IMG/VR virus record: IMGVR_UViG_3300032046_000106
Span: 1 to 36,080 of that record
Reading direction: 5' to 3' (one strand)
Length of the DNA stretch: 36,080 bases
Origin: a virus
Shown: positions 9,223 to 26,057 of the stretch, piece by piece
Layout of the letters: each line of letters starts with the position of its first letter
Position numbering within the stretch: the stretch's first letter is position 1
The notes under the pieces: generated by a model
The model's database searches: none
What the model saw: only the letters and a program-made list of their open reading frames with translations
Told to the model about the DNA's origin: nothing
Position numbers and translations under genes: made by a program

Positions 9223-10236
9223 TTAGTTTTCTAATAACCTCGGTTCTTTCCCCGTCACATTAATTAAATTTAAGATATTTACTTTAATATATTCTGCTAT
9301 TGCCTTCATGAGGTTTGGTAGGACGCTGTTGCCGATCCTTGCTGTTATGGAAACATAGTCACCTACAAAGTCAAAACTGTCGGGATAGGAGTGGCACCTG
9401 CATAGTTCACGGGTAGATAGATTGCGACTGCCATCTGGTAAGAATAAAAAACCAAGTTTGCCAAATGTTGTACTTTTGCTAATTGTCGGGCACGGCTGAT
9501 TACCATCACAGCGAATCCAATTAAAACCATGACCAAATAATTTGCCGATATTCTGCCCCGGCTTTAATAACTGAATACGCTTTACGTAAGTATGATCGGG
9601 GGCAATACGGGGTAATACATCATTGCCTGTAAGATTGGCGATCGCTTGGTTTAAGGTAACTGGCCTTCCCTGTGGTTTTGGGTGACTTGGTTCAACCCCC
9701 AAATCTTCACGGACTCCGATAATGATCACCCGTTCCCTTGACTGAGGGACGTTAAAATACATGGCGTTTAAGACTTCGCCTTTTGCCTTGTAACCGCAAT
9801 CCCTCAGGGTCTTGATGATTTCAAGGTATGCCTGTTTCATGCAGCCTTTTACCATGCCGGTGACGTTTTCCATGACAAACGCCTTCGGTTGCAATTCATC
9901 CAGAAGGCGAGCAAATTCCTTGAAAAGAGAGTTGCGCGGGTCATCCCATTTCCGCTTTCCGGCGGTACTGAATCCCTGGCAGGGCGGTGAACCGTCCAGA
10001 ACATCAAGGACGCCTTTCTTAATTCCGGCAAGCCTCATGCATTCAGCGCCGGTCAGCTTTGTAATATCCCCATGATAGACAGGGACATCCGGGAAGTTAA
10101 GCCGGAAAGTTTCGATGGCATTATCATCCCATTCAACGGCCAACAGTTCCTTGAATCCGGCCATCTGATAACCGAGGCTACTACCCCCACAACCAGCGAA
10201 CGTGCTCACTACTGTTGGTTTTTCAATGCCTTTCAT
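9223..10236 (-). CDS. dcm-like: C5-cytosine DNA methyltransferase (complete)
   Basis: With the start at ATG 10236 (AGAGGT upstream) the enzyme has 337 residues. All main motifs are visible in order: motif I FAGCGGSSLGYQMAG, motif IV DGSPPCQGFS with the catalytic Cys, motif VI VMENV, motif VIII QSRERV, and motifs IX/X RELCRCHSYPDSF ... ARIGNSVLPNLM. It methylates C5 of cytosine, probably to protect phage DNA from host restriction. The open frame continues upstream for at least 59 more codons, but that part is the C-terminus of another methyltransferase (see 10237-10448), so the apparent 396-residue protein is a false fusion. It follows a ParB-like gene, a pairing often seen in phages. Confidence 0.88.
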   Translation of the reverse strand: MKGIEKPTVVSTFAGCGGSSLGYQMAGFKELLAVEWDDNAIETFRLNFPDVPVYHGDITKLTGAECMRLAGIKKGVLDVLDGSPPCQGFSTAGKRKWDDPRNSLFKEFARLLDELQPKAFVMENVTGMVKGCMKQAYLEIIKTLRDCGYKAKGEVLNAMYFNVPQSRERVIIIGVREDLGVEPSHPKPQGRPVTLNQAIANLTGNDVLPRIAPDHTYVKRIQLLKPGQNIGKLFGHGFNWIRCDGNQPCPTISKSTTFGKLGFLFLPDGSRNLSTRELCRCHSYPDSFDFVGDYVSITARIGNSVLPNLMKAIAEYIKVNILNLINVTGKEPRLLEN

Positions 10237-10448
10237 GAAGGGTACCTCTCTGATATTTTCTGCAATCGCTCGCATTAAATTAGGCGGAACCGAATTTCCG
10301 ATCCTGTCTTTTATCTGCTTATAAGTTCCTGAAAAAATATAATCATCTGGAAATGATTGAATCCGTTTCATCTCTGAAATCAAGACAGGTCGGGGATGTT
10401 CATAATGAAACATTGAATAAGTCGCATCCCCGTTTTTTGTAAAAGCCG
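10237..10448 (-). pseudogene. C-terminal remnant of a second C5-methyltransferase
   Basis: Read in frame with the complete enzyme, this stretch encodes HYEHPRPVLISEMKRIQSF, then PDDY and later DRIGNSVPPNLMRAIAENI, which are motifs IX and X, the end of a C5-methyltransferase. No motif I, IV, VI or VIII precedes them. The frame stays open up to about 10449, where the HNH gene begins on the other strand. The matching first eight residues are found at 10983-11006. The middle of the gene, including the catalytic Cys, is gone. Confidence 0.8.
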
Positions 10449-11006: not shown

Positions 11007-11512
11007 CTAAATCCACAAGAAGGGCATTTATTTTTCGTGTTAATCATATCTTCTTCATTAATAGATTTATTTTCTATGGGAATAAAAATCTGTTCCTTCT
11101 CCGCAATCTCCTTCAGCATCTCCAGCACAACCTCATCTTCAGTTTGAATATCCTTCATCAACTCATCGAGCTTTTCTTTGTCTGTAACAGCCATTGCTGC
11201 CAGCGGATCAAGAGAGGCCAGCACCAAGGCTTCTTCCTGCGGAGAGAGATCAACATAAACAACGGGAATCGTCTGCTCATGCTTTCTTAGCGCCAGCGCA
11301 ACCCGCAGATGTCCATCAATGAGATGTCCGGTCTGCCGATTGACGATCACGTTCTGGACCCAGCCTACTTCACTAAGCACGCCCTCGAGAGCGTCCTGTT
11401 GGCTCTTCGGATGAATGCGCCAGTTGGCTGGGTTAGCAAGCAGTTGATCCGGAGCTTCTTCACCGTGACCAACGATGCGGTTTTTGTAATTAATGGGTTT
11501 GCTCTTTTTCAT
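11000..11512 (-). CDS. ParB-like nuclease-domain protein
   Basis: The protein has 170 residues. The N-terminal half has the ParB/Srx-like pattern: LLANPANWRIHPKSQQDAL, then VGWVQNVIVNRQTGHLIDGHLR, where GHLIDGHLR is the family's signature loop. The C-terminal part is helical and ends in CPSCGF. In many phages a protein of this kind precedes a DNA methyltransferase and is thought to help it or to bind DNA; chromosome partition is not implied. Here the next gene is the broken C5-methyltransferase. Its start overlaps the stop of the HTH gene upstream by four bases (ATGA). Confidence 0.8.
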   Translation of the reverse strand: MKKSKPINYKNRIVGHGEEAPDQLLANPANWRIHPKSQQDALEGVLSEVGWVQNVIVNRQTGHLIDGHLRVALALRKHEQTIPVVYVDLSPQEEALVLASLDPLAAMAVTDKEKLDELMKDIQTEDEVVLEMLKEIAEKEQIFIPIENKSINEEDMINTKNKCPSCGFRW

Positions 11513-11694
11513 CTCTTCCTCTCTTCCTGAAATTCTATCACCGCCTCTCTGGGTATCCTCTTCGTTCCAGACCCCAACCTCACAAAATCGATAATCCCCT
11601 TCTTCATCCAGTTATACACCGTCTGCCTCTTGACTTGTAAGAGGGTTGCAACCTCCGCCGGACTGAATGATGGTTTATCGGGGATGTGAATCAT
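11509..11694 (-). CDS. Small helix-turn-helix protein (MerR/excisionase-like, HTH_17 type)
   Basis: The protein has 61 residues. FSPAEVATLLQVKRQTVYNWM is a textbook winged helix-turn-helix of the MerR/Xis group, followed by GIIDFVRLGSGTKRIPREAV, the wing. It is likely a DNA-binding regulator; with no integrase in the window an excisionase role is unsupported. No usual ribosome site precedes its ATG. The nearest purine stretch, AAGGAT, belongs to the last unit of GGCNN array A, nine bases before the ATG, so the array may supply the ribosome site. Confidence 0.8.
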   Translation of the reverse strand: MIHIPDKPSFSPAEVATLLQVKRQTVYNWMKKGIIDFVRLGSGTKRIPREAVIEFQEERKR

Positions 11695-11700
11695 GGGTTA

Positions 11701-11760
11701 AATCCTTGCCTCGCCGAGTCACGCTTTACCACGCCTTGCCAAGCCCGGCCGAACCCAGCC
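11701..11760 (-). repeat. GGCNN pentamer array A
   Basis: Exactly 12 pentamers in unbroken register (NNGCC on the plus strand, GGCNN on the coding strand), starting next to the HTH gene with the conserved end AATCC-TTGCC and ending in GAGTTAA. Four inner units are degenerate (GACTC, AGCGT, GGTAA, GGTTC on the minus strand) but keep the 5-base spacing, so this looks like the oldest copy. It fills most of the gap between the 193-residue gene and the HTH gene. Confidence 0.9.
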
Positions 11761-11772
11761 GAGTTAATCTTT

Positions 11773-12354
11773 TTAAAACTCAGCAATAAATCTTCCAAAT
11801 CTTGGTCTATATGTTCCAAATCCAATTTCAGTACCCCCCTTAGAGAACCAATCTTTGATTACATCAACAGTTATTAAGGGATTTTTAAAAACTGTTACAT
11901 TGAAAATAAGTTCCCATGGAGTCTCAAGCATAGGTCGAATCTTAGGGGATGGTATAATAAGCCTTCCTTTTTGTATCATGGCTTTGTGGTGCATCACTCT
12001 GATTTTCCCTATAGAATCGTATTCATTTTTAAAACCATGAAAAACTATTGGCTTATCCTCCCTCAAAAATGGAATGAATTCCGGTTGTACCGAAACATAA
12101 GACATACCTATCATTTTATATTCTTTCCATTTTTTCTTTTCAAATCTCATGGCACATCCACCTGGTTTCTCCCCAAATAAAAACGAATAAATATTCTCCG
12201 ATGGTAAATACAATTCATTATCTGGGGTGAGGTACATCTTATTTTCTGGCGGTCTATCATTTTCTGACATATCAATGAACCGATCAAAAAGAATACTAAC
12301 CATACCTTTTGTTTTCATTGTTATTGTTTCACATCCCTCTTCCTTTTTTTTCAT
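11773..12354 (-). CDS. Phage protein of unknown function, possibly RAMP-like fold
   Basis: The protein has 193 residues. The end (GGTEIGFGTYRPRFGRF) and a middle stretch (NELYLPSENIYSFLFG) resemble a conserved phage protein group, in which a similar glycine-rich G-x-G-x-(W/Y)RP-x-(F/Y)GRF ending is seen and which I associate, with low certainty, with RAMP-like (Cas7-like) folds. No catalytic residues can be named. It begins with a clear ribosome site (AAAGGAG, six bases upstream), directly after GGCNN array B, and is followed by array A. Codon use and A-rich coding suggest no difference from neighbours. Confidence 0.65.
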   Translation of the reverse strand: MKKKEEGCETITMKTKGMVSILFDRFIDMSENDRPPENKMYLTPDNELYLPSENIYSFLFGEKPGGCAMRFEKKKWKEYKMIGMSYVSVQPEFIPFLREDKPIVFHGFKNEYDSIGKIRVMHHKAMIQKGRLIIPSPKIRPMLETPWELIFNVTVFKNPLITVDVIKDWFSKGGTEIGFGTYRPRFGRFIAEF

Positions 12355-12372
12355 CTGTTCTCCTTTTTTTAA

Positions 12373-12442
12373 AATCCTTGTCTTGCCAGGCCGTGCCGAG
12401 CCTCGCCTTGCCCCGCCGCGCCTTGCCTAGCCATGCCACGCC
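12373..12442 (-). repeat. GGCNN pentamer array B
   Basis: Fourteen pentamers in perfect register; 12 are exact GGCNN, the last two on the coding strand are GACAA and GGATT. The dinucleotide NN differs from unit to unit (GT, AT, TA, AA, GC, GG and so on). The upstream flank is TAAACCG, whose TAA is the stop of the preceding gene. The downstream end, GGCAA-(GACAA)-GGATT, is followed by an A-rich stretch and the ribosome site of the 193-residue gene. Confidence 0.95.
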
Positions 12443-12446
12443 CGGT

Positions 12447-12734
12447 TTATTTATTTTTTTCCATCAACATACCTTTCATTACGGGATTGGTAAGTTCGAT
12501 ATATTTCTTTCTGAGTTTTTCATCTTTTGGTAGATACTGAATAAGCCTTAAGGAAAATGAACGGTCTGTATTGTTTTGTATCTGTCGAATATGATGAGCT
12601 TTCAACCCTCGTGAAACTGCCTTATCTGCAATCTTAATCATATCCGTTCCCGCCCGTTTTCCCTCAAAATATTCAGTTAGAATACTCAATGCTTTGTCCC
12701 CTTGAACGATTACTTTTTCAACAAAATCTTCCAT
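12447..12734 (-). CDS. Helical protein of unknown function
   Basis: The start chosen, ATG 12734, has GGAGGA six bases upstream and gives 95 residues. A longer frame from TTG at 12803 would translate array C and is probably not used. The product is charged and almost wholly helical (FVEKVIVQGDKALSILTEYF, DMIKIADKAVSRGLKAHHI). I recognise no family. The stop codon lies in the flank of array B, and array C lies just upstream, so the gene is framed by two arrays. Confidence 0.65.
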   Translation of the reverse strand: MEDFVEKVIVQGDKALSILTEYFEGKRAGTDMIKIADKAVSRGLKAHHIRQIQNNTDRSFSLRLIQYLPKDEKLRKKYIELTNPVMKGMLMEKNK

Positions 12735-12756
12735 TTCTTCCTCCTTTTTTTTTATT

Positions 12757-12811
12757 ATCCCTTGCCATGCCATGCCTAGCCACGCCTTGCCGTGCCCTGC
12801 CAAGCCCTGCC
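12757..12811 (-). repeat. GGCNN pentamer array C
   Basis: Eleven pentamers in perfect register: ten exact GGCNN and a closing GGGAT. Upstream flank TTAACCG, downstream A-rich tract with nine A and then GGAGG and the ATG of the 95-residue gene. Translation of the array gives a repeating MAGHGKAWLGMAWQG-like peptide that should not be taken as protein. Confidence 0.95.
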
Positions 12812-14791: not shown

Positions 14792-15075
14792 TTCCACACC
14801 ATATTTCCCTTTTTGGTAATCTTCATTTTCAATAATTTCCCTGTTTTCAGGTTAATCCTATCAAACGAAACACCTAACATCTTTGATACCTCAAGGGGTA
14901 TTGGGCCGTCAAAGATTCCTCCGGTTCCGGGAGTGTCTTTCTTGCAGTCGTAACACCATATCTGACCGTAAAATTCACTCCAATCCAAATTATCACCATT
15001 ACATAAATCACATTTTATTTCATAAGAACTGGGTTTTTGGGCATAACACCAAGTTCTTAGTTTTTTCTTTTTCAA
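14788..15075 (-). CDS. Small zinc-ribbon protein
   Basis: The protein has 95 residues. Cys pairs in IKCDLCNGDNLDWSEF and IWCYDCKKDTPGTGGIF form a zinc ribbon; FDGPIPLEVSKMLGVSFDRI follows. I know similar small phage proteins with a CY(A)Q-P-x-x-Y-x-I-x-CD start; the function is unknown. The start is a TTG overlapping the stop of the GIY-YIG gene, with GGAAGAG upstream. A 24-residue N-terminal relative of this protein lies on the other side of the GIY-YIG gene (15842-15916), so the endonuclease has invaded this locus. Confidence 0.75.
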   Translation of the reverse strand: MKKKKLRTWCYAQKPSSYEIKCDLCNGDNLDWSEFYGQIWCYDCKKDTPGTGGIFDGPIPLEVSKMLGVSFDRINLKTGKLLKMKITKKGNMVWK

Positions 15076-15842
15076 TTTCTCTTCCTATTTTTAGCCGAAA
15101 TACTCATTTTAAAGCGAGCTTCTTTTGATCTTTGTTTTCCCTTCCAATAAGAAAGTTGTCCCTTTTTAGATTCGGATATTTTCTTTTTTGTTTCTTCTGA
15201 AACCACATGTCCCCTTAAGGAATTACTTATTTTTTGTTTTGAATTTTCCGAATGATGCAAGCCTGTCCAATTATGATTTGGGCGATTCTTGGCAGCTATA
15301 CTCAGTTTAATTTTAGTTTCATAAGAACGCTTTAGGCCTTTTTGCCCATTCGGTTTTCCCTTCCTACTTAAACTCAATTTTTCCTTGTGTATGTCGGAAA
15401 AAACTCTGCCTTTCAGAGTTCTACTTCTATTCTCCCTTTCAGATATAGATTGGATTCTTCCCTTATTAGCTTTACTAATTTTATTTCGTGTTACTTCGTT
15501 CACCCCGTGTCCTTTTAGGCTTTGGCTTATCTTACTCTTGGTCTCTCCCGAAAGTTTTTTGTGCTTATTGCCACCAGACTCCAAGTTATATCCATTGTTA
15601 ATTGAATCCAACAGTAAGATGGTTTCGGATTCAACCGAATCTAAATTACAATTTTCAACGTAAAAAAATGACATTTCGAAATTATCTCTTCCGTATTTAT
15701 TGATGGCTCTACTGATAGGCATATTATTTCTATGTCTGCATGTATATAAGTGATGATTGAACCTTTCCCTAACAGATTGTTGGGTCTGACCTACATAGCA
15801 TTTTTCGTTTATTTTATTTCTTAAAATATAAATAAATCCCAT
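15072..15842 (-). CDS. GIY-YIG homing endonuclease (SegA/Mob type)
   Basis: The protein has 256 residues. The GIY-YIG core is at the start: GFIYILRNKINEKCYVGQTQ, then RFNHHLYTCRHRNN and, later, the catalytic Glu in ESETILLLDSINNGYN. The remaining 150 residues hold four to six NUMOD3-like DNA-binding repeats (KISQSLKGHG, KISKANKGR, KLSLSRKGKPNG, KISNSLRGHV, KISESKKGQ). It cuts DNA at its insertion site to spread itself. Its ATG overlaps the stop of a truncated zinc-protein reading frame (TAATG), and its stop overlaps the start of a related zinc-ribbon gene. A/T content is higher than in neighbours, a sign of transfer. Confidence 0.88.
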   Translation of the reverse strand: MGFIYILRNKINEKCYVGQTQQSVRERFNHHLYTCRHRNNMPISRAINKYGRDNFEMSFFYVENCNLDSVESETILLLDSINNGYNLESGGNKHKKLSGETKSKISQSLKGHGVNEVTRNKISKANKGRIQSISERENRSRTLKGRVFSDIHKEKLSLSRKGKPNGQKGLKRSYETKIKLSIAAKNRPNHNWTGLHHSENSKQKISNSLRGHVVSEETKKKISESKKGQLSYWKGKQRSKEARFKMSISAKNRKRN

Positions 15843-24947: not shown

Positions 24948-26057
24948 ATGAAACTTACCTTGCAGATAAAACTTTTGCCTTCCGATGAACAGGCTAAATT
25001 TCTTCTGACAACTCTTAAAGAAGCTAATATTGCCTGCAATCAGATTTCCGATGTGATATGGAAAGAAAAAGTTTTCAATCAATTTAAAGCTCACCATCTT
25101 GTTTACCACCCCTTGAAAAAGGCTACCCGGCTTTCTGCTCAGATGCTTGTCAGATGTATTAGTAAAGTAGTTGACGCTTATAAACTTGACAAGAAAGTCC
25201 AGAGAAGGTTCAAGCCTTTTGGTGCAATAACATACGATCCTCGCATTCTTTCCTATAAAGAAACCTCTGTTTCTATCTGGTCTATTGATGGCAGATTGAA
25301 AATCCCCTTTGTTTGCCATAACCCTAAATATCTGCCTTATATCAAAGGTGAGGCTGACCTTATTACAAAGAAGGGCAAGTTCTATCTTTTTCAGACGGTT
25401 GAAATTCCCGAAGAGGATGTTAAGGATATTGAGGAATTTATAGGGGTGGATTTTGGAATAAATAATATTGCCACGCTCTCCGATGGAACAAATTTCGGCT
25501 CTGAAAAGTTGAATCAAGTTAGAGATAAATATTTCAAGGTGCGTAAATCTGTTCAAAGCAAAGGCACTGCAGGAAGCAGAAAGCTTCTGAAACGGCTCAA
25601 AGGTAGAGAACGGAGATTTGCCACTATTACCAATCACACCATAGCAAAGCAAATTGTAGAAAAAGCCAAAACAGAGAGTAAAGGGATTGCTATTGAGGAT
25701 TTGACCCATATCAGGAAAAGAACCACTGTTAGGAAAGCACAAAGACGAAGACATCACTCTTGGGCTTTTGCTCAACTCCGTTCTTTCCTTGAATACAAGG
25801 CAAGGCTTATTGGCATTCCCCTTGTTACAGTTGACCCTCGCTATACGAGTCAGACCTGCAATGTGTGCAAGTGTATTGGCAATAGAAATGGCAAGCACTT
25901 TAGCTGTCCAAACTGCGGCAATATTGCAGATGCCGATATAAATGCGGCTCAGAATATTGCTCAGTTGGGGATCGCTGTAACCGATCCCGAAAAGGTGAAT
26001 ATGTTTAGTTCTCTTATCCATGTTCCCTTAATGCCCCGTCAGCTTGCTGCGGGGTAG
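24948..26057 (+). CDS. tnpB: TnpB, RNA-guided nuclease of IS605-type elements
   Basis: The protein has 369 residues, the usual full length. The RuvC-like catalytic residues are intact: Asp 168 in IGVDFGINNIA, Glu 250 in GIAIEDLTHI, and DAD (328-330) before INAAQN. The zinc finger CNVC (304/307) and CPNC (320/323) precedes the last Asp, as in ISDra2-type TnpB. These enzymes use an omega (re) RNA made from the 3' end of the element to cut the empty donor site, which keeps the element in place. Here the RNA should span roughly 25900-26058 with its guide in the bases right after the element (inference). Its 3' end runs into the right-end hairpin. Confidence 0.9.
   Translation: MKLTLQIKLLPSDEQAKFLLTTLKEANIACNQISDVIWKEKVFNQFKAHHLVYHPLKKATRLSAQMLVRCISKVVDAYKLDKKVQRRFKPFGAITYDPRILSYKETSVSIWSIDGRLKIPFVCHNPKYLPYIKGEADLITKKGKFYLFQTVEIPEEDVKDIEEFIGVDFGINNIATLSDGTNFGSEKLNQVRDKYFKVRKSVQSKGTAGSRKLLKRLKGRERRFATITNHTIAKQIVEKAKTESKGIAIEDLTHIRKRTTVRKAQRRRHHSWAFAQLRSFLEYKARLIGIPLVTVDPRYTSQTCNVCKCIGNRNGKHFSCPNCGNIADADINAAQNIAQLGIAVTDPEKVNMFSSLIHVPLMPRQLAAG

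Follow-up and report, generated by a model that had tools for sequence, protein, structure and literature searches.

The window analysed here, 36,080 bases of a virus record read on one strand, contains phage genes for a terminase, a portal protein (Phage_portal) and replication initiation, together with three arrays of GGC-type pentamers encoded on the minus strand. The arrays occupy the gaps between genes of a minus-strand run, which comprises, in order, a 150-aa ORF, array 3, a 95-aa ORF, array 2, a 193-aa ORF, array 1, a 61-aa helix-turn-helix (HTH) gene and a 170-aa ParB-like gene. The 193-aa ORF is flanked by arrays on both sides, with gaps of 12 nt (array 1) and 18 nt (array 2), while arrays 2 and 3 stop a few bases 5' of the ribosome-binding sites of the next genes. 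The same region is neighboured by a C-5 cytosine DNA methylase gene and a homing-endonuclease-like gene (9223-10413 and 15072-15842, both on the minus strand). Farther away lies a gene for a TnpB-family RNA-guided endonuclease (24948-26057, plus strand), which is 59% identical to Bacteroides fragilis plasmid copies and has the opposite orientation to the majority of the phage genes.

This organisation matches that of VIPR (Viral Interference Programmable Repeat), which a 2026 preprint introduced as a phage-encoded system for RNA-guided binding of DNA (PMC13142463). Its guides, the vrRNAs, are composed of 9-16 YNNGG repeats in which GGY is conserved and NN is hypervariable, and the vrRNA tracts sit in intergenic regions flanking vipr, which encodes Vipr, a RAMP homologue of ~20 kDa with an RRM core and a glycine-rich loop (PMC13142463). 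The NN bases specify the target DNA with one base skipped (NNx), the targets being competing phages and satellites; the systems are mostly phage-encoded and possess accessory vap genes (PMC13142463). The window displays the same traits, namely a RAMP-fold Vipr of the ~20 kDa class, GGY/NN arrays flanking vipr, and phage encoding. The features of the region are as follows:

11509-11694, minus strand: 61-aa helix-turn-helix gene (HTH_17, excisionase-like), directly after array 1; Pfam HTH_17, E 3.7e-13; PHROG 66, excisionase and transcriptional regulator
11701-11760, minus strand: array 1, vrRNA candidate 1, between vipr and the 61-aa HTH gene; GGY/NN array of 11 units followed by GGATT (12 pentamers)
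11773-12354, minus strand: vipr, 193-aa RAMP-fold protein with the C-terminal glycine-rich loop GGTEIGFGTYRPRFGRF; HMM, PDB 36pp match, AlphaFold/Foldseek, alignments
12373-12442, minus strand: array 2, vrRNA candidate 2, directly 5' of the vipr ribosome-binding site; 12 GGC units, then GACAA and GGATT (14 pentamers)
12447-12734, minus strand: 95-aa ORF, candidate VIPR accessory gene; homologue adjoining vipr in L271
12757-12811, minus strand: array 3, vrRNA candidate 3, directly 5' of the ribosome-binding site of the 95-aa ORF; 10 GGC units, then GGGAT (11 pentamers)

The 61-aa HTH gene possibly encodes a DNA-binding accessory or an ordinary phage regulator. A homologue of the 95-aa ORF (29% identity over 75 aa) accompanies vipr only in L271, on the downstream side; the ORF has no match in Pfam or PADLOC, and its AlphaFold model is of low confidence.

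Anatomy of the arrays

A preceding sequence-only reading of this DNA had reported three arrays of 12, 14 and 11 pentamers, and both their coordinates and these counts were confirmed on the minus strand. Its five-base register without a slip is unbroken in all three arrays, and no comparable run occurs in 100 dinucleotide shuffles: a six-unit GGCNN pattern with up to two mismatches has 20 matches in the window versus 0 in the shuffles. The view that every unit carries GGC is nearly right for arrays 2 and 3 and breaks down in array 1, the least regular, which has 9 GGY pentamers out of 12 (7 of them GGC), two damaged units, GGT units that fit GGY, and the exceptions AGCGT, GACTC and terminal GGATT. 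Over the 33 core units (11 + 12 + 10), the triplet is GGC or GGT in 31, and the column entropies are 0.20, 0.20, 0.33, 1.75 and 1.91 bits. GGC is nearly fixed and the NN bases are near maximal entropy, varying as freely as had been noticed. The TTAACCG-like 5' flanks (TTAACTC, TAAACCG and TTAACCG) and the shared 3' ends (GGCAAGGATT, GACAAGGATT and GGCAAGGGAT) were also recovered; a 5' AACCG flank joined to GGCNN is not a general marker.

The NN dinucleotides follow each other in these orders:

Array 1: TG TC CG TT AA GT AA GT TC GA AA
Array 2: GT AT TA AA GC GG AA GA TC AC CT AA
Array 3: AG TT AG AC AA GT TA AT AT AA

In register, any two arrays share at best 2-3 NN units, which is the level of shuffled orders. 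Since the dinucleotide orders are unrelated, the arrays cannot be regarded, as had been supposed, as one element copied with differing numbers of units; they represent three different messages in one format.

The Vipr protein and its linkage to arrays

An HMM seeded only with MakoManhole gp78 and the protein presumed to be SUSP1 Vipr (KT454805, 28474-29061), whose gene has GGY arrays on its flanks, matches the 193-aa ORF with E 9.5e-5 (Z=10000) before the addition of window-like sequences, and the ORF scores 74 bits when this HMM is iterated on sequences other than the window. The profile of the window clade, compared with PDB, has as its top match 36pp, “SUSP1 Vipr protein” (E 2.5e-7); the single sequence again finds 36pp first, but with E 0.46. 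The AlphaFold model of the protein reaches a pLDDT of 92.8, and all 50 matches listed by Foldseek against PDB are CRISPR effector complexes, mostly of type III (Csm/Cmr) and type VII (best E 9.8e-6). The glycine-rich loop is visible in the Vipr alignment. The HMM, the profile match to 36pp and the predicted fold clearly indicate that the 193-aa ORF is Vipr. The same gene (11773-12354) matches PHROG 4652, the function of which is not annotated (E 4.8e-8), and judging from this sequence match PHROG 4652 may be a Vipr family.

In a scan of IMG/VR, at least 119 stretches contained ten perfect GGCNN units. Among the matches listed, the NN bases of phage contigs are nearly always diverse (mostly 2.4-3.8 bits) and the arrays lie on one strand per contig, whereas the same scan of GTDB genomes gave mostly uniform NN (mostly 0-2 bits), that is, slippage repeats. 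The phage-linked element can therefore be told from ordinary microsatellites by its NN diversity. Among the loci listed, Vipr is present, after HMM iteration, in 97 of the 128 high-entropy array loci and in 0 of the 110 low-entropy ones; the first-pass SUSP1 and MakoManhole HMM had matched 84/128 of the high-entropy loci listed. Vipr and array share one strand in 96/97 loci, mostly within about 100 nt of each other. This linkage is not circular, because the loci were picked by the DNA pattern alone (GGCNN with high NN diversity) and not by the protein. The idea that the arrays track with phage genes is supported, and the suggestion of a “protein with repeated modules” came close to the truth, as RAMP-fold proteins oligomerise along guide RNA.

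The remaining 31 high-entropy loci (including L040, L048, L052, L070, L076, L082 and L087) have no Vipr in the fetched stretch. At least some of them may be an effect of locus ends, since one, L168, has a Vipr-like match elsewhere in its genome; guides without a nearby Vipr, or other Vipr types, are possible readings too.

Several observations concern the collected arrays themselves. L026, L035 and L054 carry near-unbroken arrays of 71 to 140 units, far above the length of a single vrRNA, which may represent overlapping or fused guides. In L042, L096 and L272 (MakoManhole), T-arm-like GGTTCGACTCC or GGTTCGACCCC motifs with flanking complementary bases occur 3' of the arrays, and the vrRNA tail may there imitate part of a tRNA; in L096, a tRNA-Pro predicted by ARAGORN overlaps an array. 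Many Mycobacterium phages match the array DNA of L030 over hypothetical-protein or feature-less stretches (INPHARED matches H1-H27, e.g. NC_051648.1 36889-37233), which suggests unannotated vrRNA arrays in these phages.

Alternative readings of the arrays

The arrays might be functionless microsatellites produced by slippage, since GGCNN runs do exist as slippage repeats in cellular genomes. However, the cellular runs are mostly of low NN entropy and the phage arrays mostly of high entropy with one strand per contig, and the contrast in Vipr content between the two classes of loci is complete on the low-entropy side; this origin has a negligible probability, in accordance with the earlier rejection of plain slippage. 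Another alternative is a regulator or recombination site that acts through DNA or RNA structure, be it two-layer G-quadruplexes, R-loops or a folded leader. It would fit the G-rich coding strand, and in RNA folding arrays 2 and 3 surpass most shuffles (z -2.0 and -3.2). Yet array 1 folds no better than shuffles, RNA folding revealed no fold or hairpin common to the arrays, and such an element would leave unexplained both the fixed register with free NN and the linkage to a RAMP gene. We consider it extremely unlikely, and the structured-leader and G-quadruplex interpretations proposed from the sequence are unnecessary. Searches of Rfam around the arrays returned nothing credible.

The sites of the TRAP protein consist of (G/U)AG triplets placed 2-3 nt apart. 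The window arrays are similar in that their triplets, about 11 in number, stand two variable bases apart and near ribosome-binding sites, which arrays 2 and 3 abut, so a TRAP-like ring protein could be imagined to bind them as leader elements, with the GGC triplets and their 2-nt spacers 5' of the ribosome-binding sites acting as translational operators. The window differs from TRAP sites in its GGC triplets and linked RAMP gene: GGC or GGT, not (G/U)AG, fills all but two core units, so a TRAP binding site as such was rejected. Against a TRAP-like leader in general also stand the spacers, which are hypervariable as for a guide, and the arrays of relatives, which also occur downstream of vipr, in clusters and with up to 140 units. 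This explanation is therefore very improbable. A CRISPR-Cas array was rejected as well: the repeat is a pentamer with three of five bases conserved, not identical repeats with unique spacers, and no CRISPR array or cas gene was recognised near the arrays, the Pfam and PADLOC searches of the surrounding genes giving no cas match. The literature on pentanucleotide repeats yielded human disease repeats and unrelated motifs only.

Proposed guide function, target searches and relation to known systems

We conclude that the arrays very probably encode three vrRNAs, the guides of a VIPR system carried by this phage, in which the 193-aa ORF codes for Vipr. Counting against this reading are the two damaged units of array 1, the missing SUSP1-like structured 3' tail and target searches that led to no assignment. 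The window almost certainly holds a new natural example of this recently described system, not a new kind, and the earlier statement that no named family has these features is superseded, the VIPR vrRNAs being that family (PMC13142463).

By analogy with the described VIPR, we infer how RNA production and trimming, complex formation, the pairing code, targeting and the role in this phage would proceed. The minus-strand operon would be transcribed and vrRNAs of about 55-75 nt released. Several Vipr subunits would line up along each vrRNA, with the GGY triplets held by the protein and the NN dinucleotides free to pair with DNA of the form NNxNNxNNx, leaving one skipped base, and the complex would block transcription of a gene belonging to a competing phage, satellite or prophage. 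Because a search of the array strand revealed no adjacent sigma-70-like promoter, excision from the operon RNA is the probable source of the guides. A further, rather unlikely proposal is that this clade uses tail-less vrRNAs embedded in mRNA leaders directly 5' of the ribosome-binding sites of vipr and its neighbours, in which case guide excision or binding would alter vipr translation and couple guide supply to the Vipr level.

Under the one-base-skip rule, the array 2 target would read GTNATNTANAANGCNGGNAANGANTCNACNCTNAA. The full-length NNx targets of arrays 1 and 2 have 0 exact matches in IMG/VR, and that of array 3 has 1, in L274; this one lies out of frame, in a contig of low GC content, and was put down to chance. 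For array 2, an in-frame match of its last nine units was obtained in the DUF4055 portal genes of the related contigs L275 and L276, the skipped base falling on the codon wobble position; the first nine units have no match. Since about one such match is expected by chance (18 fixed bases, search space roughly put at 1e11 bases, both strands searched), the portal match is suggestive as a lead only. Within the window, self-targets do not rise above shuffled guides, and in 16 relative records no array 2 target was found with 3 mismatches allowed. In an underpowered comparison of 334 guides with 2.2 Mb of sequence, the 1-nt skip gave no more matches than other skips or shuffles did.

VIPR has been proposed as a forerunner of CRISPR, and its pairing code is non-contiguous. 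With the window, VIPR gains a member whose clade is remote from the characterised SUSP1 type and whose three guides can be read. Simply looking for GGCNN arrays of high NN diversity leads to Vipr genes in about three quarters of the loci listed, which makes it an easy way to chart VIPR systems and guides among uncultured phages. Should targets be found for the window clade, the pairing rule could be examined outside type II.

In the tree, the window Vipr falls into a 16-member clade (support 0.997) far from SUSP1, the other deep nodes being poorly supported. Its closest relative in IMG/VR is L271, with 65% identity of Vipr and arrays on both sides of the gene; in genomes of one phylum, Vipr of this clade gave 1 match in 395 genomes. 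VIPR is divided into seven types (PMC13142463). The studied systems are those of the Escherichia phage SUSP1 and a Pseudomonas fulva prophage; a structured 3' tail follows the repeats in the SUSP1 clade (type II), and architectures vary between types (PMC13142463).

Like the window, the SUSP1 and P. fulva systems are phage-encoded and combine GGY/NN arrays of 10-15 units with a ~20 kDa RAMP-fold protein possessing a glycine-rich loop, the guides being on the vipr strand. Identity between the window Vipr and the SUSP1-like group is about 16-23%, the window units are mostly GGC whereas those of SUSP1 are mostly GGT, and the small candidate accessory ORF is a different one. In the window, unlike in SUSP1, the arrays border vipr on either side and sit immediately 5' of ribosome-binding sites; nothing like a structured 3' tail was seen after them, arrays 2 and 3 being followed by A/T-rich sequence and the ribosome-binding site. 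With the effector RAMPs of Class 1 CRISPR (type III and type VII subunits), the window Vipr has the RAMP fold in common, whereas the window system is distinguished by a single small RAMP and by repeats that are pentamers with variable dinucleotides.
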